This document shows, piece by piece, positions 1 to 9,746 of a stretch of DNA of 43,634 nucleotides. Position 1 is the stretch's first letter. Each line of letters begins with the position of its first letter. The stretch comes from a virus: positions 1 through 43,634 of IMG/VR virus record IMGVR_UViG_3300043436_001827. One strand, 5' to 3'. A program made the translations under genes and the position numbers. Below the pieces are notes generated by a model. That model was not told the origin of the DNA. It searched no databases and was given only the letters and a program-made list of their open reading frames with translations.

Positions 1-11
1 AGTGAAAAATT

Positions 12-398
12 TTAATTTAGCCACGCATAAACCTGTTCACTAGCTCGCTTACTAGAGTTCTTAAGTTCATGCATAATGATGTCGTATTTGATAGCTATAC
101 CGGATCCTCCTGCATTCATAACGTACATACCATCCTTCATCACGATAACAGATGATGGCTTGTAACTAATGTCAATTGGTAGTTGTGGTAGTTCTGATTC
201 ACCGACTAAGTATAAATATACATCATTCCAAAAGTCGTACCCTTCACGTGATTGATTCCAATCAAATAGCGTCATGAGTTCTGTTGATGCTAACGTACCT
301 TCTTCCTGGTACGCTACATTGAAATCATCCATGTTGCTAACGATTCTGTCAACATATGATTCAGGTAACCTTTGAAGTAGTACGTCAATTATTTTCAT
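12..398 (-). CDS. Hypothetical protein, 128 aa
   Basis: An intact acidic soluble protein that I do not recognise. It has no signal peptide or membrane segment. It contains Trp/Tyr-rich stretches around residues 45-65 and a Gly-rich turn (NAGGSGIAI) near residue 95. It is the most downstream gene in the window of the long minus-strand block, so its mRNA probably starts far upstream. The start is the first ATG of the frame and lies in an A/T-rich context without a Shine-Dalgarno site, as for its neighbours. Confidence 0.7.
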   Translation of the reverse strand: MKIIDVLLQRLPESYVDRIVSNMDDFNVAYQEEGTLASTELMTLFDWNQSREGYDFWNDVYLYLVGESELPQLPIDISYKPSSVIVMKDGMYVMNAGGSGIAIKYDIIMHELKNSSKRASEQVYAWLN

Positions 399-406
399 AC
401 TCTAAT

Positions 407-574
407 TTACAATATAATTCCATATAGTACAATTTCAATTGCTCTAAATCTATCTTCAATATGATCTCCCATATCATATTGTTCAAACCTCCTGATAGTC
501 TCGTCTATTATAGACTGATCTATCTCTATGTGCAAGTATTCAGCTACCTGCACTACATCTTCTTGAGTGACCAT
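407..574 (-). CDS. Small hypothetical protein, 55 aa
   Basis: A 55-residue acidic frame beginning MVTQEDVVQVAEYLHIEID and ending IVLYGIIL. I found it by translating the gap between neighbouring genes. Its ATG lies inside the last codons of the upstream gene (stop at 553-555), the tight overlap usual in this block, and the next gene begins 9 nt after its stop. Its composition (EDVVQVAEYL, IDETIRRFEQY) suggests a short amphipathic helical protein. Function unknown. Confidence 0.55.
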   Translation of the reverse strand: MVTQEDVVQVAEYLHIEIDQSIIDETIRRFEQYDMGDHIEDRFRAIEIVLYGIIL

Positions 575-723
575 AGTGTTTCTTGTTTAGCTATGTATAT
601 TATTTCATCATACTGATGCTCAGAAGCGAACTTCGTTATTGCATCTATCTCATTTATTGCAGAGATATTTACGCCTGTAGGCAGTTGGTTTTTGCGTGTG
701 TAGAATATGTGATATGTACTCAT
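553..723 (-). CDS. Small hypothetical protein, 56 aa
   Basis: A 56-residue frame (MSTYHIFYTRKNQLPTGVNI...) that overlaps the stop of the upstream gene by a few bases and runs 22 nt into the next gene. It starts with a beta-strand-like segment (YHIFYTRK) and ends in a charged helix, like the small stand-alone phage proteins at 6544-6702 and 6715-6885, which also begin MK/MS plus an aromatic strand. This could be one repeated small fold, but similarity is too weak to claim homology. No function assigned. Confidence 0.6.
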   Translation of the reverse strand: MSTYHIFYTRKNQLPTGVNISAINEIDAITKFASEHQYDEIIYIAKQETLWSLKKM

Positions 724-956
724 GTAGTATAGATTAATGTTTCTTTATATCCGTTTCTTTGTCGTTCAAAGAATAGTGCTGCACCACCATCGTTGCATTC
801 GTCATCTGTTACTGGAAGCATAAAGTCTCCACCCTCAAATACAATTACTAATGGTTTCTTGTAGAAGCCAAAGTCCTGAGCTTCTTGATCAGTCATATAC
901 CTTACGCCTGATATCTTCTTACCTACTAGGTATTCGAATTCTTTGTTGTGATTCAT
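720..956 (-). CDS. Small hypothetical phage protein, 78 aa
   Basis: This 78-residue protein (MNHNKEFEYLVGKKISGVRY) has alternating strands, a hydrophobic strand LVIVFEGGDF and a cluster of acidic residues DDECNDGG. The pattern suggests a small beta-rich domain. Its stop overlaps the ATG of the next gene, consistent with translational coupling. No catalytic motif is visible and the function is unknown. Confidence 0.7.
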   Translation of the reverse strand: MNHNKEFEYLVGKKISGVRYMTDQEAQDFGFYKKPLVIVFEGGDFMLPVTDDECNDGGAALFFERQRNGYKETLIYTT

Positions 957-1168
957 TGTTGTTGTCTTAAGTTAATTAAATCATTCATTCTATTTGATAA
1001 TAGGTATGCTATTTCGCATATGTTATATACCAACTCCTCATCATCTTCCAATGATAGTTCTGCAATTGTTTCAGCATCTAAACGACCAATTGGATTTTTT
1101 GAGAATTCAGTTTCTATAATTGTTTTCAATAGATACTTGCGTGTATCATCCGACAGTACTCTTTTCAT
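953..1168 (-). CDS. Hypothetical protein, 71 aa
   Basis: A 71-residue, mostly helical acidic protein (MKRVLSDDTRKYLLKTIIET) with no recognisable motif. It overlaps the start of the downstream gene by 4 nt and abuts the upstream membrane-protein gene, so it is clearly part of the same polycistronic unit. The plus-strand frame over the same bases is a shadow. Confidence 0.65.
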   Translation of the reverse strand: MKRVLSDDTRKYLLKTIIETEFSKNPIGRLDAETIAELSLEDDEELVYNICEIAYLLSNRMNDLINLRQQQ

Positions 1169-1356
1169 TTTGTTTTAATTAAGTGTTCGTAATAACCTAT
1201 CTCTCTTTCGTTAGCGCAGTCACTCATATCGCCAACCTTTGGTATCTCTACAATGCTGTATATCTTTTCTATTTCTTTTTCATACATCGTTGTAGCCAAT
1301 AGCATACCTATCGCAATCCCTGCAAATAGGTAAAGTATATTCTCAAACCTCCTCAT
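1165..1356 (-). CDS. Small single-pass membrane protein
   Basis: The open frame extends up to 1413, but its first residues overlap the acidic C-terminus of the upstream gene. The better start is the internal ATG giving MRRFENILYLFAGIAIGMLL. That N-terminus is a clear transmembrane segment (LYLFAGIAIGMLLATTMY) with Arg-Arg before it, followed by a charged tail of about 40 residues ending HLIKTK. The topology looks like a small inner-membrane protein with its C-terminus outside. Role unknown; small phage membrane proteins are often involved in superinfection exclusion or lysis, but nothing here proves either. Confidence 0.6.
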   Translation of the reverse strand: MRRFENILYLFAGIAIGMLLATTMYEKEIEKIYSIVEIPKVGDMSDCANEREIGYYEHLIKTK

Positions 1357-1597
1357 ACTCATCGTAATTATCATCGTCATCGAATGTAGTGTAATAGAAG
1401 TACTCCTCTGCATAGAAGTAATCCATTAGGTCTTCGTCATGATCGAAGCTTACCTCGTTACCATCAAGGTCAATCCAGTCAAGTGAGCGTAAGTGCTCAA
1501 TCAAATACTTTTTTTCACTGAAGTATAGTAGTGTATCAAAGTGGTCAACCACATAACCTGATGTCATGCGTTCACCTGTCTTACTGCAAGTTCTCAT
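1343..1597 (-). CDS. Hypothetical acidic protein, 84 aa
   Basis: An 84-residue protein with two Cys/Thr-rich positions at the N-terminus (MRTCSKTGERMTSGYV) and a strongly acidic aromatic C-terminus (DYFYAEEYFYYTTFDDDDN). The start matches a common opening for small phage proteins in which a Cys near residue 4 is followed by GE/TG, sometimes a zinc or DNA-mimic fold; this is a guess. It overlaps both neighbours by a few bases, supporting translation. Confidence 0.65.
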   Translation of the reverse strand: MRTCSKTGERMTSGYVVDHFDTLLYFSEKKYLIEHLRSLDWIDLDGNEVSFDHDEDLMDYFYAEEYFYYTTFDDDDNYDEYEEV

Positions 1598-1818
1598 TTG
1601 TAATCCTCTGTTAATTCTAAATTCATTAATCTTCCTTCGTCATATATTTGGTCATGAATTCTTTCATATATCCAATCACTACTAAGGACATTGTCAAGTA
1701 TTTCATCAGCCTCATCGTCAGTGCAGTGAAATTTTTCTCTAACATCAGACCTATGCCACATCTCACCGACATAGTATCCGTTGCTTTTTAATAGTTCAAT
1801 CGCTTCTTGTATTGTCAT
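1594..1818 (-). CDS. Hypothetical protein, 74 aa
   Basis: A 74-residue acidic helical protein starting MTIQEAIELLKSNGYYVGEM. The opening helix plus NGYYV turn is a frequent layout of small phage helix-turn proteins. Its stop overlaps the ATG of the following gene (ATGA type). No known domain can be assigned. Confidence 0.7.
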   Translation of the reverse strand: MTIQEAIELLKSNGYYVGEMWHRSDVREKFHCTDDEADEILDNVLSSDWIYERIHDQIYDEGRLMNLELTEDYK

Positions 1819-1829
1819 AGCTAATTTTT

Positions 1830-2039
1830 TTAAAGTTCATCATCTAATTCCGGCATACCCTCGTAAAAGAAATCAGGGCAGTCACATGACTCCATCTCTC
1901 GCTTGCATGAATAGCAATTGATTACCTCATCGTCAAGTCTATGCAGGAGAATACTACCGCAGTGACCACAGGTAATTAAGTTGATGTCAGTCTTGTTTAA
2001 TACCTCACGCATGAGGTCTACTTGGTGTCTTAGTGTCAT
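1830..2039 (-). CDS. Small Cys-pair protein (zinc-ribbon-like), 69 aa
   Basis: A 69-residue protein with CGHCGS around residue 24 and CYSCKREMESCDCPD near residues 42-54. Two CxxC pairs about 18 residues apart are the signature of a zinc ribbon, here followed by extra cysteines. Zinc ribbons of this size often bind nucleic acid or a polymerase, but no partner can be named from sequence. It is transcribed with its neighbours. Confidence 0.7.
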   Translation of the reverse strand: MTLRHQVDLMREVLNKTDINLITCGHCGSILLHRLDDEVINCYSCKREMESCDCPDFFYEGMPELDDEL

Positions 2040-2212
2040 TTTATATAAGTAAAAAGTGTTATTGTATTCTCTCCATCATACCAAACTTCAGCAGTGCTAT
2101 AAGCTATATCTAATTCAGGGTCTTTTGAATCAGTGTTATTACCAATGAAATCAATTGTTGCTTCTTTGTTATCTACCAATTGTAGTAGATTGATTAACTC
2201 TTGTACTCTCAT
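2036..2212 (-). CDS. Small hypothetical protein, 58 aa
   Basis: A 58-residue frame (MRVQELINLLQLVDNKEATI ... TLFTYIK). Its ATG overlaps the stop of the upstream gene (2209-2211) and its own TGA overlaps the ATG of the zinc-ribbon-like gene, so both junctions are coupled. The mixed alpha/beta pattern has no motif. I am fairly confident it is translated but cannot assign a function. Confidence 0.6.
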   Translation of the reverse strand: MRVQELINLLQLVDNKEATIDFIGNNTDSKDPELDIAYSTAEVWYDGENTITLFTYIK

Positions 2213-2400
2213 AAATCTTTTATTTGGCTAATTAATAATTTACTTTTTAAAGAGTACTCAACTGACTCAGTCATCTTATCAAAACCCATGTCTTTACATA
2301 GTCTTTCTAATGCTGGCACACAATCTTTGTATGTATACTCATCCATGAACACAGCGACTAACTCAGCGTGTCCACTTCTCTCAAAAAATACTCTTATCAT
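2209..2400 (-). CDS. Small hypothetical protein, 63 aa
   Basis: A 63-residue protein (MIRVFFERSGHAELVAVFMD) with a strand-helix-strand pattern. It directly follows the Api92-like gene, with its ATG overlapping that gene's stop. No motif recognised. Confidence 0.65.
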   Translation of the reverse strand: MIRVFFERSGHAELVAVFMDEYTYKDCVPALERLCKDMGFDKMTESVEYSLKSKLLISQIKDL

Positions 2401-2954
2401 TACTTCTTTTTTGTTTCATTTAATACTTGATTCCATTCAGCTTCAGTTAGATGTGGTTTGAAGTTATCTTCAACATACTCGAAGTCATAGTATATGTCAT
2501 CATTAAGATCACTGATAAGCCTGTCAATAGCATACTCTCTATCTTGCAATAGGTCATACTCAAAGCAAGTCATCTCAGTGTCATTAAGATTACCATCCTC
2601 AGCAGTATAGATACCAGCGAAGTCCATTCCCATCTCATAATAGTTACCCTCAGCACGAACATTGAACACCTCAGTAATCTCAGCTATCAATCGCAGTGGT
2701 GGTGACCATGCACTACTACCTTGAATGTTTAGGTAGCCTTCTCCAATATCTTGTACATCAAATTCCCACCATTTTGTACCATATGAATAACCCCACTCAA
2801 ATGTACTTTTGTCACTAATCTCCTTGCCTAATACAAACTCAGCAAAGTTGGTAAAGTATTCATGCTCACGATAGCGTTTGAATCGCTCATCAATAATCTC
2901 TAAATCTTTTTGGTCACCGTAAAATGTGACATTGTTGTCGCAATAATTTGGCAT
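2400..2954 (-). CDS. Api92/YubB-like ferredoxin-fold protein
   Basis: 184 residues beginning MPNYCDNNVTFYGDQKDLEI. This opening (MPNxCxNxVxxxG) is the hallmark of the Api92-like / YubB (DUF1281-type) family, common on plasmids, phages and other mobile elements, where the N-terminal half adopts a ferredoxin-like fold. A second conserved-looking part, WGYSYGTKWWEFDVQ with SAWSPPLRLI near residues 58-90, fits the family's middle region. The C-terminus is acidic and helical. Molecular function is not established for the family. It lies between two small coupled genes in the accessory block. Confidence 0.8.
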   Translation of the reverse strand: MPNYCDNNVTFYGDQKDLEIIDERFKRYREHEYFTNFAEFVLGKEISDKSTFEWGYSYGTKWWEFDVQDIGEGYLNIQGSSAWSPPLRLIAEITEVFNVRAEGNYYEMGMDFAGIYTAEDGNLNDTEMTCFEYDLLQDREYAIDRLISDLNDDIYYDFEYVEDNFKPHLTEAEWNQVLNETKKK

Positions 2955-2965
2955 GGTAGATAATT

Positions 2966-3682
2966 TTATACACCTAATGCGGTGTTGTTAATAACAAATC
3001 CTGTTGTATCTTTCTTTGCTTTACCCTTTGCAACGAGGCCTACAACAACTCCTCGCTCATCGGTGTACCTGAGGTCATCTTCGTCTCCACTTACCACACG
3101 GAATCCATTCCATGTATCAGGTAACTTATTGAATACTACAGCTACATTTCCTCCTAATCTAAGATACTCAATACATTCTAAATCATTGGTCTCTGACCTT
3201 GAAAATGTCAAGTGATAATCAGTGTTCAGGTATTGTATTGCACGCTTGAGATTCTTTGTGTAATCATAGAACTTAATGTTAGTCAATGACTTAAGTATGT
3301 CTGCATTAAGCTTTACTTTAAGTAGACTGATAAAGTCAATGTCTGAAGTTCCGTTCAGCCTGATGGCAACCTCTTCATTTTTAGAGTTGATAGTGATGAG
3401 TTCTCCTAACAACTGCTTGAGGAACGCTGACTTATCCGATAGGAAGTAATCGGTCTTGCGTATCCTAGCTGATTGTACATTAGAGAATGCACCACGACCT
3501 GCCGAGTTAAGGCAAGCCGTAGCACATCCTACTGATGCGTGACCACATACATTTTTACCATAGCTATTCTGCTTGTATGGTGAGAGATGCATGATGTAAC
3601 TTTTAATTGGGTTCTTAGCAGTTTTAGTATTGCTGCTCCCCGGACTCAGTAGCTTCATCTTCATGTTCATCTTCTTCTTCAT
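2966..3682 (-). CDS. Phage gp88-like protein (Cys-cluster)
   Basis: 238 residues. The N-terminal third, SPGSSNTKTAKNP followed by HLSPYKQNSYGKNVC and CGHASVGCATACLNSAGRG, resembles the 'gene product 88' family of phage proteins. The cysteines at about residues 46, 53 and 57 (Cx6Cx3C) are the likely metal or cluster site. The remainder has an IRLNGTSDIDF segment and a C-terminal KAKKDTTGF segment typical of that family. The biochemical role is unknown to me; the Cys arrangement invites comparison with radical-SAM-like proteins. The frame overlaps the preceding gene by 59 nt if the first ATG is used. Starting at Met9 (3658, MKLLSPGSSN) reduces this to 35 nt and is equally likely. Confidence 0.7.
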   Translation of the reverse strand: MKKKMNMKMKLLSPGSSNTKTAKNPIKSYIMHLSPYKQNSYGKNVCGHASVGCATACLNSAGRGAFSNVQSARIRKTDYFLSDKSAFLKQLLGELITINSKNEEVAIRLNGTSDIDFISLLKVKLNADILKSLTNIKFYDYTKNLKRAIQYLNTDYHLTFSRSETNDLECIEYLRLGGNVAVVFNKLPDTWNGFRVVSGDEDDLRYTDERGVVVGLVAKGKAKKDTTGFVINNTALGV

Positions 3683-4040
3683 CTTTTAAGTTATCTAATT
3701 CTCTAATCAATTCCTCAAGGAAATCATCAGCCATTCTGCGTGATGAACCTAATTGATCCGATACGATATCTTGTAGGTCGAATGTGATATCGATGTCAAT
3801 ACCACCACCATATACATTTTGTTGGTATGATGTATCAAGCTCACTAAATACATTCTTGTCAATAAACCTGTCAAGTAAATCGATGATAGTTTCTTTTACT
3901 ACATCAGATATTTCATACTTACCTACTGGTTGTTGCTCTTCCTTTGCGGAAATGATAGCATCTGATAGGTCAACTCTAAGTCTTACTAATTCTGATTGTA
4001 AGCTGTCTAATCTTTCTGATAATTGTTCTAAATTGTTCAT
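3624..4040 (-). CDS. Hypothetical coiled-coil acidic protein, 138 aa
   Basis: The N-terminus MNNLEQLSERLDSLQSELVR is a heptad-patterned coiled coil of about 35 residues. A middle domain contains YGGGIDIDITFDLQDI, and the tail is very acidic (DEEEDEHEDEATES). It is possibly an oligomeric DNA-mimic or adaptor protein, but no homologue is recognised. Its 3' end overlaps the start of the gp88-like gene. Confidence 0.65.
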   Translation of the reverse strand: MNNLEQLSERLDSLQSELVRLRVDLSDAIISAKEEQQPVGKYEISDVVKETIIDLLDRFIDKNVFSELDTSYQQNVYGGGIDIDITFDLQDIVSDQLGSSRRMADDFLEELIRELDNLKDEEEDEHEDEATESGEQQY

Positions 4041-4062
4041 GGTATATATATTTATTTATTGG

Positions 4063-4275
4063 TTACTTAATTAAATAGTTCATTACTTTATCTGCATATG
4101 CGTGAGTAGTTACTTCTGTTAGATACTCATATGCTTCCATTTGGTCCGTGCATTTCCAATTACGCAGTACATCTTTTGTGTTCCAATCAAGTACTTGAAT
4201 ATGCATTACTCCTTTCTTATTGTCAGCCTTGATGATACCACCCATGCATGACTCTCCAATCTTAAATGTTTTCAT
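4063..4275 (-). CDS. Hypothetical protein, 70 aa
   Basis: A 70-residue protein (MKTFKIGESCMGGIIKADNK) of alternating strands with an aromatic helix at the end. Its ATG overlaps the stop of the preceding gene (ATGA), indicating coupling. No recognised domain. Confidence 0.65.
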   Translation of the reverse strand: MKTFKIGESCMGGIIKADNKKGVMHIQVLDWNTKDVLRNWKCTDQMEAYEYLTEVTTHAYADKVMNYLIK

Positions 4276-4580
4276 ACTCCTAATCCTTTTACATCAATGA
4301 AATCTCCATCCCATACCTCACCATTGAGATGCCACTGCCAATTCTTTTGATGTATGTGTACTCCAGGAATTGCGTTGAGACGCTCTTTCGTTGTGTTTGT
4401 GAACCAACCTCTATTAGTTATGGTTAAAGTTCGTTCAGGGTCATTAAATCGGTACGCAATCGCATTACCGTATAGTTTCATTACAGTTACATTTGGCAAC
4501 ACCTCTATTGTCATGTTGTCTTTCTTGAATGGTCGAGCGTTCATGAATGCATCGATTGATTGTGCTGTTATCTTTTTCAT
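4272..4580 (-). CDS. Hypothetical protein, 102 aa
   Basis: A 102-residue basic protein. Its C-terminal half (TNRGWFTNTTKERLNAIPGV followed by QKNWQWHLNG) is a pattern seen in many small phage and plasmid proteins of unknown function. Its start is one of the seven copies of the AAACAA..GAACAATG start-site element. No catalytic residues are evident. Confidence 0.7.
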   Translation of the reverse strand: MKKITAQSIDAFMNARPFKKDNMTIEVLPNVTVMKLYGNAIAYRFNDPERTLTITNRGWFTNTTKERLNAIPGVHIHQKNWQWHLNGEVWDGDFIDVKGLGV

Positions 4581-4807
4581 TGTTCTTGTTTAAAGGTTTC
4601 ATCCCAATACTCTTCAAATGTTTGCCAATTTTCTTCTGCAATACCTTTGCCTTCAAATCTACCCGCTTGATGTGCTACATCCCAAGTTTCTTTGTGGGCT
4701 TGTTTATCCATTTCTTTAGCTTGACTTAGAAGATTAAGTACTAAGCCTTTTGTTAAAATTCCATATTGGTTTACTTCTTTTTCAAGCCATTCTACTGCTG
4801 TTTTCAT
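4577..4807 (-). CDS. Hypothetical protein, 76 aa
   Basis: A 76-residue helical protein (MKTAVEWLEKEVNQYGILTK) ending EETFKQEQ. The MKTAVEWLE opening and helical pattern are common among Bacteroidota phage and mobile-element small proteins. Related openings occur at 5154-5351 (TAVEFLESVE), so the two are probably paralogues that duplicated locally. The stop overlaps the next ATG. Function unknown. Confidence 0.7.
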   Translation of the reverse strand: MKTAVEWLEKEVNQYGILTKGLVLNLLSQAKEMDKQAHKETWDVAHQAGRFEGKGIAEENWQTFEEYWDETFKQEQ

Positions 4808-4968
4808 TTTTCTTGTTGTTTAAAGGTTTCGTTGTAACAATTTGTGCATTGTATTAATCCCGCTTCCATCCAAATTTCAGTAACATATACATCTTCTTTA
4901 GTATATCCACAAGTGTCACAATAATTATGTGTATACATTGTTTTAATAAAATTAAATAGCTTCTTCAT
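4804..4968 (-). CDS. Small Cys-pair protein (zinc-ribbon-like), 54 aa
   Basis: A 54-residue frame with CDTCGYTKED around residues 18-27 and CTNCYNETF near residue 41, a two-CxxC zinc-ribbon layout. The C-terminus FKQQEK is encoded by the recurrent start-site element of the next gene. It begins with that same element (AAACAAGAACAATG). The clear Cys spacing and coupled ends make it a real gene, though its function is unknown. Confidence 0.65.
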   Translation of the reverse strand: MKKLFNFIKTMYTHNYCDTCGYTKEDVYVTEIWMEAGLIQCTNCYNETFKQQEK

Positions 4969-4977
4969 TGTTCTTGT

Positions 4978-5157
4978 TTAAGGTTGTTCAAGTTCTAATT
5001 CTTTTCTAACTTCTTGCCAAAAGTCTCTATCTCCTAATGGTAAAAGATTTAATATATCACATTGTATAGATGCTTCAATGTCATAATATCCTATATATTC
5101 TTTTGCTTCAGCATAATACTTAATCACTAACTCTTGTGCTTTTTCTTTTGGTGTCAT
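4978..5157 (-). CDS. Small hypothetical protein, 59 aa
   Basis: A 59-residue protein starting MTPKEKAQELVIKYYAEAKE. The opening is very typical of small Bacteroidota phage/mobile-element proteins with an MTPKEKAxELxxKY helix. The ATG sits directly in an AAACAACAAGAACAATG element and overlaps the upstream stop. Function is unknown. Confidence 0.7.
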   Translation of the reverse strand: MTPKEKAQELVIKYYAEAKEYIGYYDIEASIQCDILNLLPLGDRDFWQEVRKELELEQP

Positions 5158-5351
5158 TGTTCTTGTTGTTTAAGTAGTTCAATTGCTTTTTGGAATCCTT
5201 GTTTAAATCCATAAATTGTATCTAATTTTTGAGTTTCTGAAGTTGTGTTTTCACCATAACTATTGTATCTATGTTTAATACTATCTTTAGCAAACTTATC
5301 AACCTCAACACTTTCTAAAAATTCTACTGCTGTTAATTCTGTTGTTTTCAT
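5154..5351 (-). CDS. Hypothetical protein, 65 aa
   Basis: A 65-residue protein (MKTTELTAVEFLESVEVDKF ... KAIELLKQQEQ). It resembles the protein at 4577-4807 in its TAVEFLE/TAVEWLE opening and KQQEQ/KQEQ ending. Part of the C-terminal identity is a by-product of the repeated start-site element of the next gene. No function recognised. Confidence 0.65.
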   Translation of the reverse strand: MKTTELTAVEFLESVEVDKFAKDSIKHRYNSYGENTTSETQKLDTIYGFKQGFQKAIELLKQQEQ

Positions 5352-5485
5352 TGTTCTTGTTGTTTAGGTTTAGGTAATATTCCGTCTTTAATTAGTTTGT
5401 TCCATTCAATTCTTTCTTGGTTCTTTCCCAAATAGAAAAACACGAATGCTACCAATACAATTGGTACTATAAATAATGCTATCAT
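5348..5485 (-). CDS. Small single-pass membrane protein, 45 aa
   Basis: A 45-residue frame: hydrophobic N-terminus MIALFIVPIVLVAFVFFYLG (one transmembrane helix) followed by a charged tail ending KPKQQEQ. Its ATG lies in an AAACAACAATAACAATG variant of the local start-site element and its stop overlaps the next ATG. Role unknown. Confidence 0.6.
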   Translation of the reverse strand: MIALFIVPIVLVAFVFFYLGKNQERIEWNKLIKDGILPKPKQQEQ

Positions 5486-5497
5486 TGTTATTGTTGT

Positions 5498-5662
5498 TTA
5501 AATGTCAAAATCATCCTTAATAAATTGATATATAAGGTAATAAACTAATGCAAAAGATATAGTGCATAATGCTACTAATCCTAATATTGGAAATAAATAT
5601 ATTAATCCAATACATCCAATTATTAAAATGATAATAATAGATGTTATTAAATGTGTCTTCAT
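5498..5662 (-). CDS. Small two-helix membrane protein, 54 aa
   Basis: A 54-residue frame with two hydrophobic segments (SIIIILIIGCIGLIYLF and VALCTISFALVYYLIY) joined by a short turn, with a small acidic tail FIKDDFDI. It is preceded by the AAACAACAAGAACAATG element. This could be a holin-like or exclusion-type membrane protein by topology alone, but nothing more specific supports either. Confidence 0.6.
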   Translation of the reverse strand: MKTHLITSIIIILIIGCIGLIYLFPILGLVALCTISFALVYYLIYQFIKDDFDI

Positions 5663-5678
5663 TGTTCTTGTTGTTTAG

Positions 5679-5948
5679 TTAGTATTTAAGTTTGCCCTCT
5701 TCATAGAAGAATCTAATTCTTTCTTTGATATCTTCAGCGATACCTATCCAACCTTGCATTGAAATCATAGGTATCTTGCCTTGCAGCATCAGTTCTTCTT
5801 CTTCTTTAATCATCTCTTCTTTCCTTGATATTACCTCATCGCAGAATGTTTCGAGTCCTTGCATAATAAAAGCTTGGCATAGTCCACCGTATGGGCTATA
5901 GTTCATCAAGTTTTTGATTAGGTCTTCGTTAGTTAATTGCTTGCTCAT
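5679..5948 (-). CDS. Hypothetical protein, 89 aa
   Basis: An 89-residue helical protein starting MSKQLTNEDLIKNLMNYSPY with a YGGLCQAFIMQGLETF helix. This opening and the CQAFIMQGL segment are the sort seen in many Bacteroidota phage proteins of unknown role. Its stop is 17 nt before the next start. No motif found. Confidence 0.7.
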   Translation of the reverse strand: MSKQLTNEDLIKNLMNYSPYGGLCQAFIMQGLETFCDEVISRKEEMIKEEEELMLQGKIPMISMQGWIGIAEDIKERIRFFYEEGKLKY

Positions 5949-6094
5949 TTTTCTTTGCTTGTTAAATAATTAATTAATTCATTCTCTTGTTTGTCATTCA
6001 ATATTAATTGACCACTCAGGTACATTGAAACAATTTCATAACCTGTTGGAGTGTATCCGTATTTTACTTCGAATTGTTTTTTAATTTCTTCCAT
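5945..6094 (-). CDS. Small hypothetical protein, 49 aa
   Basis: A 49-residue frame (MEEIKKQFEVKYGYTPTGYE ... LTSKEK). The stop overlaps the ATG of the 5679-5948 gene, supporting coupled translation. An amphipathic N-terminal helix is followed by a second helix; function unknown. Confidence 0.6.
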   Translation of the reverse strand: MEEIKKQFEVKYGYTPTGYEIVSMYLSGQLILNDKQENELINYLTSKEK

Positions 6095-6106
6095 TGTGTT
6101 TATTTA

Positions 6107-6547
6107 TTAAATGTATCCTTCATCTGCCATTGATAGATATCCGGTATCCGATAGAATGATGTGGTCCAGTACTTGTATGTCTAGTATGTCTCCTGCATTT
6201 TGTAGCTTACGAGTTAACTCGATGTCTTGCTGACTTGGTTTGAGTGCTCCTGATGGGTGATTGTGTGCTAAGATTATGCTATGTCCGGCCACCGATAGTG
6301 CGCGAGTGAACACTACTTTTGTATCTACAATTACTCCTGCTGTACCGCCACTTGATAGTTTGTCTACTGATATAACTTCATTAGCACGGTTTAATATAAT
6401 CATCGCACTCTCTTCGGTCCATTGTATTGTATCTGCATCGAATATAGTTCTGAAGAATTGTGCAGCGTCTGCACTGCTCTTCATCTGATAGGTTATGCCG
6501 TCACCTTTCTTGGTTTTGACTGTGATTTTTGTTTGTGGTAGTTTCAT
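6107..6547 (-). CDS. radC-like: Stand-alone RadC-like JAB-domain protein
   Basis: 146 residues covering just the JAB/MPN domain of RadC. The metal-binding signature is complete: catalytic Glu at residue 45 or 46 (WTEESAMIIL), then HNHPSGALKPSQQD at residues 95-108 with His95, His97, Ser105 and Asp108. The helix-hairpin-helix half found in chromosomal RadC (about 220 aa total) is missing, as is usual in phage and plasmid copies. The family is often called a DNA repair protein, but the function is not settled; the fold is that of Zn-dependent isopeptidases. It sits among early accessory genes, consistent with a role against host defence or in DNA processing (inference). Confidence 0.88.
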   Translation of the reverse strand: MKLPQTKITVKTKKGDGITYQMKSSADAAQFFRTIFDADTIQWTEESAMIILNRANEVISVDKLSSGGTAGVIVDTKVVFTRALSVAGHSIILAHNHPSGALKPSQQDIELTRKLQNAGDILDIQVLDHIILSDTGYLSMADEGYI

Positions 6548-6702
6548 TTGATTAGTCTTAGTGTATACTTATCTCTTATTCCTTGCCAAGACAATAGATT
6601 CTTGGCTATCTTTACTGCTTCTGCTCTATCATTTGCGGATATCATTGTGCTATCCACTTCACCTCCGTCATGTGTGAGTACAGTTAATCTCCAGTGTTTC
6701 AT
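6544..6702 (-). CDS. Small hypothetical protein, 52 aa
   Basis: A 52-residue frame (MKHWRLTVLTHDGGEVDSTM) whose TGA overlaps the ATG of the RadC-like gene. It is a strand-turn-helix protein: MKHWRLTVLT then ANDRAEAVKIAKNLL. This opening resembles the next gene upstream (MKYYHLTFLRDG), so the two may be tandem paralogues. Confidence 0.6.
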   Translation of the reverse strand: MKHWRLTVLTHDGGEVDSTMISANDRAEAVKIAKNLLSWQGIRDKYTLRLIK

Positions 6703-6714
6703 GTTGTTTTGTGT

Positions 6715-6885
6715 TTATTGATAAAATGAATTATATTCTTCTTCATCTATCTCTCTTGAGTATAGAATGTGTACTTCTCTTCCTAATTCTTTCTCAATTA
6801 AAATGAAGTTTGCAATGCTTGTTGCAATAGTGAGGGCAGTAAAGTATTTGCCATCTCTTAAAAATGTTAAATGGTAGTATTTCAT
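6715..6885 (-). CDS. Small hypothetical protein, 56 aa
   Basis: A 56-residue frame starting MKYYHLTFLRDGKYFTALTI with a strand then a helical stretch, ending NSFYQ. The ATG lies in an A-rich run (AAAATAAAACAAAATG), the usual Bacteroidota-like start context. It is probably a paralogue of 6544-6702. Function unknown. Confidence 0.6.
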   Translation of the reverse strand: MKYYHLTFLRDGKYFTALTIATSIANFILIEKELGREVHILYSREIDEEEYNSFYQ

Positions 6886-6917
6886 TTTGTTTTATTTTAA
6901 AAAGTTTGCGTTGATAG

Positions 6918-6943
6918 TGATGCGAAAAGAAATAGGCGCATCA
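6918..6943 (-). other. Hairpin in 99-nt intergenic gap
   Basis: TGATGCG (6918-6924) and CGCATCA (6937-6943) can form a perfect 7-bp stem with a 12-nt loop, on either strand. On the minus strand it is not followed by a U tract, so it is not an obvious terminator. It lies in the only unannotated gap of this part of the block and may be an RNA processing or stabilising hairpin. Confidence 0.4.
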
Positions 6944-6984
6944 GTTAAGACACGCCTTTCTTCTCTATCTACCACAACAGAATG

Positions 6985-7074
6985 TTATTTCTTCTTTGGT
7001 TTGTATTGAATGTACTTGATGAATAACACTACATTGAGTGTTAATGATAAATATATAAGTTCTCCTAAAGTCAT
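6985..7074 (-). CDS. Very small membrane protein, 29 aa
   Basis: A 29-residue frame: MTLGELIYLSLTLNVVLFIK plus a basic tail YIQYKPKKK. One hydrophobic helix with positive residues after it fits a type N-out single-pass micro-protein. Its ATG overlaps the stop of the gene upstream (7071-7073), which raises the chance that it is translated. Too short for a firm call. Confidence 0.45.
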   Translation of the reverse strand: MTLGELIYLSLTLNVVLFIKYIQYKPKKK

Positions 7075-7292
7075 GGCTTCTCAATTAAATAGTGAATAGT
7101 ATAGTCCTCTTGATCTTCGTATAGTACCTCACGAATGTTCCCGTACTTGCGTACTAATTCCTTGAGCTTTACATACTTTTCGATACTAATCCATTGTCCC
7201 TTGACTTCTCCCGGATTACATAGGAACACATTTGTCCTGTTGCTTGGTCGTAGTACTTCTGCACTCCAGACCTTGTTGATTTGTACACGCAT
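7071..7292 (-). CDS. Hypothetical protein, 73 aa
   Basis: A 73-residue basic protein (MRVQINKVWSAEVLRPSNRT) with strands and one helix (VKLKELVRKYG). It ends in HYLIEKP and its TGA overlaps the ATG of the micro-protein downstream. No family recognised. Confidence 0.65.
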   Translation of the reverse strand: MRVQINKVWSAEVLRPSNRTNVFLCNPGEVKGQWISIEKYVKLKELVRKYGNIREVLYEDQEDYTIHYLIEKP

Positions 7293-7305
7293 TTGTTCTC
7301 TGTTT

Positions 7306-7485
7306 TTAGTGGTTATTTCTTCTGTTATCTAATTCTGTTGCGGCTATAATTCCTCCGATAGTTGACACTACGGTTAGCCCCATACTAAATAATGTTGCCT
7401 CTATTTCATTGCTCATAATAGAGTTCACGAGTATGCACAATGACATGAATAATGACACGAGCATTAAGATAAAAATTCCTTTCAT
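7306..7485 (-). CDS. Small membrane protein downstream of hammerhead ribozyme
   Basis: The open frame extends up to 7533, but the extra N-terminal codons lie inside the ribozyme, so I choose the ATG at 7485 (MKGIFILMLVSLFMSLCILV). This gives 59 residues with two hydrophobic helices (residues 4-24 and about 33-50) and a basic tail NRRNNH. If the ribozyme cleaves, the 3' product starts TTAACCAATTAATT and reaches this ATG after 23 nt, so the gene would be translated from a ribozyme-processed mRNA with a very short leader. The alternative start at 7515 overlaps the cleavage site and would be destroyed by cutting. Function unknown. Confidence 0.65.
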   Translation of the reverse strand: MKGIFILMLVSLFMSLCILVNSIMSNEIEATLFSMGLTVVSTIGGIIAATELDNRRNNH

Positions 7486-7502
7486 TTGGTAGATAATTAA
7501 TT

Positions 7503-7585
7503 GGTTAAGACTCATAAAGAAAAGGGGATGCACCCATATAGTACACCCCCTGGAGTTTCGTCTAATAAAGACTCGTCAGTTAACC
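7503..7585 (-). ncRNA. Type I hammerhead ribozyme
   Basis: Reading the minus strand 5' to 3': stem I GGTTAA (7585-7580); core CTGACGA (7579-7573, C3-A9 of the hammerhead); stem II GTC/GAC (7572-7570 and 7562-7560) with loop TTTATTA; core GAA (7559-7557); stem III ACTC (7556-7553) closed far downstream by GAGT (7513-7510); cleavage-site C17 at 7509; stem I return strand TTAACC (7508-7503). Every conserved core nucleotide is present, including the A15.1-U16.1 pair, and all three helices pair perfectly. Both ends are in stem I, so this is a type I hammerhead. Predicted cut is between 7509 and 7508. It begins one base after the stop codon of 7586-8014. Hammerheads are known from phages and gut viromes; activity here is inferred. 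Confidence 0.9.
7514..7551 (-). terminator. Terminator-like hairpin inside ribozyme stem III
   Basis: On the minus strand AGGGGGTGTAC (7551-7541) pairs with GTGCATCCCCT (7533-7523), 11 bp with two G-U pairs and a 7-nt loop, followed by TTTCTTTAT. This has the shape of a rho-independent terminator after the 7586-8014 gene. It is also the apical part of ribozyme stem III, so a transcript ended here would lack the 3' part of the ribozyme. Confidence 0.65.
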
Positions 7586-8014
7586 TTAGATTGCGGCAGT
7601 CTTTTTGTTTTGTGCCTCAACTTTTGTTTTTGTTACGGCTAACTTATTGAATTTAGCTAATACATTGATGCCGTCCCAAGTAGAGTACAAAGCTTTAGGT
7701 TTTCTAGTTATTTCCTCGAGAAATTCAGCATAACTAGGCATTTTACTTTTGCCTAGCACTAACTTAACATTATCGGCAATTTCTCCTTTTGTTTTGTTTA
7801 GTCTATTGTAAACTGCACTCGGGCTTTTGTCCTCGAGCATAATCAAGGTATTGACTAAACTTTTTAGTTCGGCTAAGTTAAGCCCCTCGGATTTTTGCTT
7901 GGTTTTCAATGCATCTAAACGCATCATTTTTTTGTCAAAGCTTGACAATTTGTTAGCACTTACAACTTTTGTAGTTGTTACTTTTTTCGCTGTGTTTTGT
8001 GTTTTTGTTTTCAT
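7586..8014 (-). CDS. Basic hypothetical protein, 142 aa
   Basis: 142 residues, Lys-rich and Thr-rich at both ends (MKTKTQNTAKKVTTTKVVSA; KTKVEAQNKKTAAI). The middle helical region has LNLAELKSLVNTLIMLEDKS and PSAVYNRLNKTKGEIADNV. No catalytic motif is visible; it could be nucleic-acid binding by charge. It is the first gene of the minus-strand block and is flanked by a tRNA-like element upstream and the hammerhead ribozyme directly after its stop, so its mRNA would carry structured RNA at both ends. The start lies in an A/AC-rich stretch (AAAACAAAACAAAATG). Confidence 0.75.
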   Translation of the reverse strand: MKTKTQNTAKKVTTTKVVSANKLSSFDKKMMRLDALKTKQKSEGLNLAELKSLVNTLIMLEDKSPSAVYNRLNKTKGEIADNVKLVLGKSKMPSYAEFLEEITRKPKALYSTWDGINVLAKFNKLAVTKTKVEAQNKKTAAI

Positions 8015-8057
8015 TTTGTTTTGTTTTGTTTTTATTGATTATTAATTAAAAATTAGC

Positions 8058-8126
8058 GGTGCAAGTGGATTCGAACCACTTAACAAATAATTATTTCAAT
8101 TTGTTAACGCCTTAACTTTTGCACCT
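8058..8126 (-). tRNA. tRNA-like element (degenerate or non-canonical)
   Basis: On the minus strand GGTGCA near 8125-8120 pairs with TGCACC near 8064-8059. A near-perfect T arm precedes the 3' strand: AGTGG, loop TTCGAAT, CCACT. A short D-like hairpin GTTAAGGCGTTAAC carries the GG of a D loop. In place of a normal anticodon arm there is a 9-bp stem TTAACAAAT/ATTTGTTAA with a 10-nt loop TGAAATAATT, sharing bases with the D hairpin. No encoded CCA is seen. If the loop is read as a broken anticodon loop, TTGAAAT would give GAA (Phe). It may be a decayed tRNA or a tRNA mimic; a normal tRNA is unlikely. Confidence 0.5.
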
Positions 8127-8127
8127 T

Positions 8128-8470
8128 TGCCCCGTTCCATTATTACGGCTTTCATTTATTTGCATCTCCCCCTTTTTTAATTCGGTTCATTGCTAGAGGA
8201 TTTTGCTTGTTGCCCCTACATTTGCGTATTGTTGCTACCTAGTTGCTAATTAGGTTACGCCTTTATCGTTTGGTCTAGACAATTGCAAGTGCCTTGAAAG
8301 GATTAACTAGATGCCTTTTTACTAGTGTTCGGTTATGCTTTGTGTTACAATTGTAACTAATCTCAATTGAGAGTAAGCCCGAAGCCCTTATTAACTTGCG
8401 TTAGTGTGTAGCCCGTATGTCAAGTGGTGTTGCGTTCTCGTTTGAACAAGGCTAATGTATGGAATAAAGT
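8128..8470. other. Noncoding region with CAATTG palindromes
   Basis: No credible gene in about 340 nt. It holds two perfect palindromes 16 bp apart centre to centre: GTTACAATTGTAAC (8344-8357) and TCTCAATTGAGA (8361-8372), both with a CAATTG core, plus a third CAATTG at 8280-8285. An imperfect dyad ACCTA...TAGGT lies near 8237-8255. This is operator-like structure between the divergent gene blocks; alternatively part of a structured RNA continuing into the tRNA-like element on the minus strand. Confidence 0.5.
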
Positions 8471-9180
8471 TTGAATAAACCTAAAGAAAGTTTAAGAAAA
8501 TTTCAAAAAGCTAGGAAAATCAAGGGTTTCAGAGTCGTATATAAATACTGGAAATGGGCAAAATTGGGCTATTTTTGGGCAAATTGGCGTGAATTAAACG
8601 CAACAAATTGTGGGTATTTTTGGCGTAAATCAGCACTAAAAAAGGGGTTTGAATAGGTCTATATTGAACGCATATAAAAGCCCTATATAAACGGGCAAAA
8701 GGCCTAGCAAAGTGGATAAACCAAAGCTTGAAAAAAAGATAGTTAACTCGCTGAAAATGAGGAAGTTTGACCTTGCGTTTTCGGTACGGAACGGGGAGGG
8801 GATACCTTAGGGCGTATAAGACCCTAAAAAACAGAGAAACTTTTCAGGGGATAGCCTGATATTAAAGTAAATTAGTAAGGGTATAGCCTTATAGAAGTGG
8901 GAGGGGTAGTAGTACTAGGCATAGGGTACATTCGATGTAGGGATAAATGATTATGATGCTGATCCTATCCTTTCGGTATACAATCAGATGTTCACTTCGT
9001 ACACATCAGATTATATATTCAAGGTATCAATGATATTATGTTAGAATGACGTAGAGATAAACAGTATATAGAGAATATTTTTAAGTAGTTGATTACTAAT
9101 AAGTTAGTATAGTAAAAAGTGGTAACAAGTTGTTCTGACAAAAGTGTATACAAAGTGCTTGTTTTCTTAAATTTTATTTA
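8471..9180. other. Noncoding region with short direct repeats, possible origin
   Basis: About 700 nt without a convincing gene. Three related 12-16-nt units occur: GGGGATACCTTA (8798-8809), GGGGATAGCCTGAT (8847-8860) and AAGGGTATAGCCTTAT (8877-8892). Two ATCAGAT copies lie at about 8983-9012. The area becomes AT-rich toward 9190. Iteron-like repeats beside an AT-rich stretch and close to a RepL-like gene suggest a replication or control region. The repeats are imperfect, so this is tentative. Confidence 0.35.
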
Positions 9181-9188
9181 TATATTTG
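9181..9188 (+). promoter_or_regulatory. Bacteroidota-type promoter -7 element
   Basis: TATATTTG matches the TAnnTTTG element of Bacteroidota primary-sigma promoters, with a TTG about 22 nt upstream in GCTTGTTTTC. It is only 4 nt before the ATG of the first rightward gene, so the mRNA would start at or next to the start codon. Confidence 0.65.
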
Positions 9189-9192
9189 CCAT

Positions 9193-9429
9193 ATGAAAGT
9201 AGTAAATGGATTTTTATTAACTCGATGTAGCTTTAAGGCTGATGATAAGTTGGCTCATTTAGGTTTACCTAGTGCTAATGAGTTTGATGACTTTAGAGTT
9301 AAGGTTAGTGAGATCATTTCCTGGAATAGTTCTGAGGATGGAATGCATACAACCATAAGAACTATTGTTGGTGATTTTACTATTGAGGAGACAATGGAGG
9401 ATTTGGACATTTTAATGCTGAGTAAATGA
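9193..9429 (+). CDS. Hypothetical protein, 78 aa
   Basis: The first gene of the rightward block: 78 residues, MKVVNGFLLTRCSFKADDKL, with beta strands and an acidic C-terminal helix (EETMEDLDILML). It directly follows a TATATTTG promoter element, so translation may be leaderless or almost so. Its stop (TGA 9427-9429) overlaps the ATG of the HNH gene. No domain recognised. Confidence 0.7.
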   Translation: MKVVNGFLLTRCSFKADDKLAHLGLPSANEFDDFRVKVSEIISWNSSEDGMHTTIRTIVGDFTIEETMEDLDILMLSK

Positions 9430-9746
9430 TTACCAAGGATGGAGTAGACTTAAGTGTCTGTGCTTATTGTAAGACCACGTTGGATGACTATAGTAGAACT
9501 GTGGATCATCTGATACCTAAAAGTCGTGGCGGTAAGTTAAGCAATGCAAATAAGGTACCTGCCTGTGGTGATTGTAACAAGATGAAAGGAGATATGAGTG
9601 TTACTGAATTCAGTAGGGCTCTAAATGGATTAATCTTCTATGAGCACACACGCCATAAGCAAACCATATCGCATTTGAAGAAAATTAAAATTAACGTAGA
9701 CACACTTATTGTAGATCGGAACATCCGATCCAAAGACAAAAAATGA
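9426..9746 (+). CDS. HNH endonuclease
   Basis: 106 residues with a complete HNH nuclease: zinc-binding CAYC (Cys12, Cys15) and CGDC (Cys47, Cys50), catalytic DHLIPKSRGG (Asp27-His28), central Asn around residues 40-42, and CNKMKG after the second Cys pair. The layout matches compact HNH proteins of the type often next to phage terminases, where they help cut genome concatemers, as well as free-standing homing types. Its position four genes before TerL and in an operon with a RepL-like protein fits a replication or packaging role. The start overlaps the preceding stop by ATGA. Confidence 0.9.
   Translation: MITKDGVDLSVCAYCKTTLDDYSRTVDHLIPKSRGGKLSNANKVPACGDCNKMKGDMSVTEFSRALNGLIFYEHTRHKQTISHLKKIKINVDTLIVDRNIRSKDKK

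Follow-up and report, generated by a model that had tools for sequence, protein, structure and literature searches.

Self-cleaving ribozymes of phages

Type I hammerhead ribozymes were described in phages and prophages by Perreault et al. in 2011, who found them between phage genes (PMC3088659). Their proposed role there is to divide long phage transcripts into mRNAs the length of one gene or operon, and self-cleavage was shown in vitro for several of them, and also in E. coli for the A. tumefaciens set (PMC3088659). A review describes the function of phage hammerheads as an open question (PMC6155905). Other viral cases are the hammerhead of haloviruses HF1 and HF2, located 13 nt upstream of the helicase start codon (PMC3088659), and the Theta (HDV-like) ribozymes that adjoin phage suppressor tRNAs, some of them in phages of Bacteroidota (PMC10879173).

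We analysed a 43.6-kb virus record in its full length, hereafter the window, in which terminase and portal genes are present. It harbours a hammerhead with the same core, type I layout and intergenic phage position as those of PMC3088659. In contrast with them, the loop of its stem III holds a probable intrinsic terminator, so that completing the ribozyme would need read-through; a text search of PMC3088659 found no mention of terminators. Clustered phage hammerheads flank successive genes (PMC3088659, Figure 3), whereas our covariance model found a single hammerhead in the window. A circular-RNA role was set aside, as the window has only this one. Like ours, the HF1/HF2 ribozyme is a viral hammerhead placed so that the gene behind it keeps a short leader after cleavage, but it belongs to an archaeal virus, has an altered core and has no terminator reported with it. 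Theta ribozymes are likewise self-cleaving phage RNAs used for RNA end processing, but they are of another class and trim tRNA 3' ends instead of separating mRNAs.

A complete type I hammerhead motif between two co-oriented genes

The motif spans positions 7585 to 7503 of the minus strand, which is the sense strand of both neighbouring genes, and its stem I is open-ended. Read 5' to 3', it comprises the first strand of stem I, GGUUAA (7585-7580, pairing with 7508-7503), the core stretch CUGACGA (7579-7573), stem II GUCU/AGAC closed by loop II UUAUU (7572-7560), the core GAA corresponding to G12 A13 A14 (7559-7557), and the first strand of stem III, ACUC, with A15.1 as its first base (7556-7553). 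After 39 nt come the partner strand GAGU (7513-7510), which includes U16.1, then C17 (7509) and the second strand of stem I, UUAACC (7508-7503). Thus, every core position agrees with CUGANGA, GAA, A15.1-U16.1 and H17 (here C), as the first-pass annotation had claimed for this strand. Stems I, II and III have 6, 4 and 4 pairs with no mismatch; that annotation was right about the perfect pairing, but its stem II (GTC/GAC) was one pair too short. The A before stem I, the AA after it and the U..U-ended loop II follow the sequence pattern conserved in 198 phage hammerheads; these are the bases considered for a possible tertiary contact between stem I and loop II. By every sequence test available, 7585-7503 is a hammerhead, with cleavage predicted 3' of C17, between 7509 and 7508.

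The upstream gene, P0001 (7586-8014, minus strand), is the first gene of the leftward operon of the phage. It codes for a small basic protein of 142 aa with a K/T-rich N-terminus containing TTTKVV; it matches phrog_15227 weakly, and a Pfam search with it returned nothing. Its UAA stop codon (7588-7586) is followed directly by the first base of stem I, in agreement with the earlier description. The downstream gene, P0002 (7306-7485, minus strand), codes for a hydrophobic small protein of 59 aa, and a homologue in L002 supports its start. Its ATG (7485) lies 17 nt from the end of the motif and 23 nt from the predicted cut, and the 23-nt leader proposed earlier is recovered as UUAACCAAUUAAUUAUCUACCAA (7508-7486), which has no Shine-Dalgarno sequence. 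Leaders in this phage are A-rich, and a Shine-Dalgarno-like word precedes 3/32 ORFs.

Neither the hammerhead region nor P0001 had a match among GenBank phages in DNA and protein searches, and the terminase matches only distant T4-like ones. Short matches to a consensus hammerhead in Streptomyces phages and in a Manatee Spring podovirus were discarded, since the covariance model found no hammerhead in those records. Of three genome hits to the GTTAAC-type hammerhead, two are Bacteroidota MAGs, and the host is likely a member of the Bacteroidota.

Statistical support and typical position

We searched for all three hammerhead topologies in the window and in 150 first-order Markov resamplings of it. 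One type I motif was found in the window and none in the 150 resamplings, which yielded three type II and two type III motifs. We built a covariance model (R1) on 48 type I hammerheads taken from viral contigs other than the window; the family of the window was excluded. The model scored the window hammerhead at 57.1 bits (E 2.2e-13), and the second-best place in the window at 13 bits. The 48 training sequences were picked by our own stem criterion, which makes the pair counts of R1 partly circular, and we did not use these counts as evidence. Among the places found by the core and the stem II letters GTC/GAC only, all but 8 also close stems I and III, 107 of them as type I and 25 as type III, with a few places counted in both.

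The covariance-model check suggested in the first-pass annotation gave a divided answer, as the dedicated phage model detects the motif but Rfam does not. An Rfam search of the window gave no hit at the gathering score; Hammerhead_3 reached 22 bits against a threshold of 48.5, and in the wrong topology. Rfam also gave no hammerhead hit in seven other loci with clear siblings of this ribozyme (L117, L020, L179, L160, L182, L002 and L125). We therefore did not count the miss against the hammerhead, and we rejected Rfam as an arbiter: what the miss reflects is its models or thresholds and not the window RNA. A dedicated model for type I phage hammerheads would be useful.

For comparison, we collected 268 type I hammerheads in viral loci, which are partly non-independent and in whose selection distances played no part. 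In 174 of them (65%), an ATG opening at least 30 codons lies 18-28 nt after the cut, against 7.7% for random same-strand positions and 3.4% for the opposite strand. An upstream stop codon ends between -6 and +3 of stem I in 156/268 (58%), with control values of 5.4% (random, same strand) and 11.6% (opposite strand). With an ATG distance of 23 and a stop-codon offset of 0, the window hammerhead is typical of phage hammerheads as a group, in which stem I comes directly after the stop codon and some 23 nt separate the cut from the ATG. Records of its relatives contain up to nine hammerheads each. Eight occur in a row at 532-4574 of L198, a 5.8-kb contig from a MAG labelled Aliivibrio, where a ninth scores weakly.

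A probable intrinsic terminator nested in stem III

The stem III loop contains a hairpin (7551-7523, minus strand) of 12 pairs with a loop of 5, followed by TTTCTTT within the T tract TTTCTTTAT (7522-7514). The G+C-rich hairpin preceding a U tract corresponds to the definition of an intrinsic terminator used here. The element at 7551-7514 shares with intrinsic (Rho-independent) terminators this hairpin, the T tract directly after it and the place behind a stop codon, but it is enclosed in a ribozyme and its T tract is interrupted by a C. The last strand of the ribozyme, 7513-7503, lies past the putative terminator, and would thus be made only if the polymerase passes it. This nested element was overlooked in the first-pass annotation, and it changes the likely role of the ribozyme.

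A terminator scan of positions 1-9500 of the window found 4 sites, with 4.0 expected in shuffled sequences, and the significance of the nested hairpin hence rests on its homologues. By protein similarity alone and ignoring ribozymes, we identified 13 loci with relatives of the L160/L182 gene that corresponds to P0001, some of which are duplicates or the query records themselves. A hammerhead with a nested hairpin follows the stop codon in L204 (= L160) and L206 (= L182). A plain hairpin with a T run and no hammerhead occupies this place in L205, L207/L208, L209/L210, L211, L212 and L213, and these plain hairpins precede TTTTTT. After the stop codon of the gene, there is no such hairpin in L214 and none that is clear in L215, and the sequence of L216 ends early. 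As relatives have a plain terminator at the same place, the hairpin inside the ribozyme is probably a genuine terminator too. The proteins of L205 and L206 have almost the same start, but L206 has the ribozyme and L205 the plain terminator. Ribozymes thus appear to come and go around a constant terminator, and the near-identical gene without a hammerhead in L205 indicates that the ribozyme is dispensable.

We scanned IMG/VR exhaustively for hammerheads with a long stem III, stem I being fixed as GGTTAA. This gave 47 distinct sequences, seven of which have a nested terminator: those of the window, L002, L003, L160, L182, L179 and L236. Six of the seven follow one kind of gene, while that of L236 follows an unrelated one. 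In the open-access literature searched, none of the papers describes a hammerhead around a terminator. As far as that literature shows, the enclosure is new; the window element is otherwise an ordinary phage hammerhead between genes.

The nested hairpin might also be an elongated, non-terminating stem III of an active hammerhead that only trims, either the leader in front of the downstream gene or the P0001 message at its tail. That most phage hammerheads have no nested terminator (6/268 have one), yet share the same stop codon and leader register, speaks for such simple trimming, as does the T tract of L182, which is just three long. Nevertheless, genes of this kind are followed in relatives by hairpins with TTTTTT and no hammerhead in the corresponding position, which argues for termination. 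So does the T tract itself, which is retained in the window, L002 and L003 although its letters shift. We therefore regard trimming alone as unlikely.

Conservation and folding of the ribozyme

The close comparison involves two relatives only, L002 and L003, which are nearly alike in the hammerhead element; their proteins are 89% identical to P0001, and both carry the element. The flanking DNA of the window and these relatives differs by ~15%. Within the element, the sequences differ at N7 (position 7575, C in the window and U in L002/L003), in loop II, in the loop of the nested hairpin and in the T tract, and otherwise only by a compensatory change of the fourth pair of stem II, from U-A in the window to C-G in L002/L003. 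Stem I, stem III, GAA and C17 are invariant among the three sequences. Across the seven nested cases, covariation is seen in stem II (GUCU/AGAC, GUCC/GGAC, GGGC/GCCC) and in basal stem III (ACUC/GAGU, ACGC/GCGU, ACAC/GUGU, ACCA/UGGU). L003 has another downstream gene with the same element, which shows that the element travels with the upstream gene.

In an energy model without tertiary contacts, the hammerhead fold lies 2.8 kcal/mol above the nearest-neighbour minimum, whereas the median gap for compact phage hammerheads is 0. This gap is due to the long loop that the 4 bp of stem III have to close. It would fit a situation in which only the terminator works and the hammerhead, with its short stem III around a stable hairpin, seldom cuts and persists as a passenger or relic. 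That such elements decay is indicated by the loss in L205 and the U4C core in L209/L210. However, with ~15% divergence in the flanks, the retention of all core bases and stems and the compensatory change are hard to reconcile with a relic, which we consider improbable.

In the window, L002 and L003 alike, the minimum-energy fold differs from the hammerhead, and in principle the hammerhead could alternate on a signal with the minimum-energy fold, in which the core GAC pairs with a 3' GUC, to give cut and uncut messages. Such a conditional switch is very improbable: the element has no conserved ligand-binding domain, the competing pairing is not common to L160, L182 and L179, and the energy model excludes tertiary contacts.

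Possible exchange of elements at the site upstream of P0001

Just before P0001, we found a tRNA-like element (8125-8057, minus strand) with the acceptor GGUGCA/UGCACC, the T-arm GUGGUUCGAAUCCAC with loop TTCGAAT, and a long second arm but no D-arm. It was not detected by ARAGORN with default settings or by Rfam. Relatives have tRNA-like elements before position 5953 (L002 and L003), 7062 (L179) and 3013 (L212); in L002, L179 and L212 the acceptor and T-arm letters differ from those of the window and still pair. Positions 8015-9192 form a gene-free region of ~1.2 kb that separates divergent operons and is possibly a long non-coding leader or RNA; in the relatives examined, the same gene is preceded by a region of similar size.

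In other loci the tRNA-like site is occupied by a type I hammerhead (L160 5697+, L182 7124-, L213 2769+, and L209 2868+ with a U4C core), by a type III hammerhead (L215 2888+, 37 bits with Rfam) or by a decayed hammerhead (L205). The L209/L210 sequence (2868-2941) has all hammerhead stems and the core CCGATGA, and is a candidate inactivated or slow variant. Another structured element, GCCTTGTTTACTATGAGTAATTAAC..AGCGAAA..G CRAGGC ACTAACC, lies ~80 to 30 nt upstream of the gene start in L207, L208, L211 and L214. It has a 7-nt loop and a 5-bp arm that covaries, and an Rfam search at E <= 2 in loci L207 and L214 gave no match for it. The loop UUGAAAUAAUUA, or a close variant, occurs both in the long arm of the window tRNA-like element and in stem III of the hammerheads of L160 (5697), L182 (7124), L205, L209 and L213.

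Processing elements thus look as if they had been exchanged at one site before the P0001-type gene. A tentative extension, to which we give somewhat less than even odds, is that in phages, probably of Bacteroidota, RNA-processing elements that can replace one another lie on both sides of the first small gene in an operon. On the upstream side, these would be a type I or III hammerhead or a D-arm-less tRNA-like element, likely a substrate of RNase P/Z, and on the downstream side a terminator that some phages have enclosed in a hammerhead serving as read-through cutter. If this is true, selection would act on the cut itself, whichever type of RNA produces it.

Proposed role of the nested hammerhead

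We propose as the probable role of this element that, at the end of P0001, a functional type I hammerhead encloses an intrinsic terminator and divides read-through transcripts into two mRNAs. The proposal draws on the motif, its conservation, covariation and position, and the homology of its nested hairpin to plain terminators. Transcripts that stop at the nested terminator would give a P0001 message devoid of the last ribozyme strand, GAGUC UUAACC, and therefore unable to cut itself. If the polymerase reads through, the hammerhead would be completed and would cut at 7509/7508. The P0001 message would then have a fixed 3' end, closed by structure and bearing a 2',3'-cyclic phosphate. The next gene would obtain a message of its own, with a 5'-OH and a short, probably unstructured leader of 23 nt. 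In general RNA biology, ends of these two kinds, 5'-OH and 2',3'-cyclic phosphate, would be expected to withstand enzymes that require a 5'-monophosphate or a 3'-OH. The T tract is followed by the next ATG after ~30 nt, with no promoter evident in between, and the downstream genes thus probably depend on read-through. A boxA-like antitermination signal precedes the gene in L160, L182 and L213, but it is absent from the window and was dropped as a general feature.

We infer that cleavage takes place in the cell, that termination is partial and that the hammerhead is linked to gene regulation. The benefit to the phage would be the separation of two messages, with their ratio and stability set by the element. 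The register of stop codon, ribozyme, ~23 nt and ATG recurs in hundreds of phage hammerheads, and this locus makes their function testable. Here terminator and ribozyme share one element, so the ribozyme would act only on read-through transcripts, and near-identical relatives with (L206) and without (L205) the ribozyme exist for comparison. Lastly, the exchange of hammerheads and tRNA-like elements at the neighbouring site suggests that the property under selection is the cutting of RNA as such.
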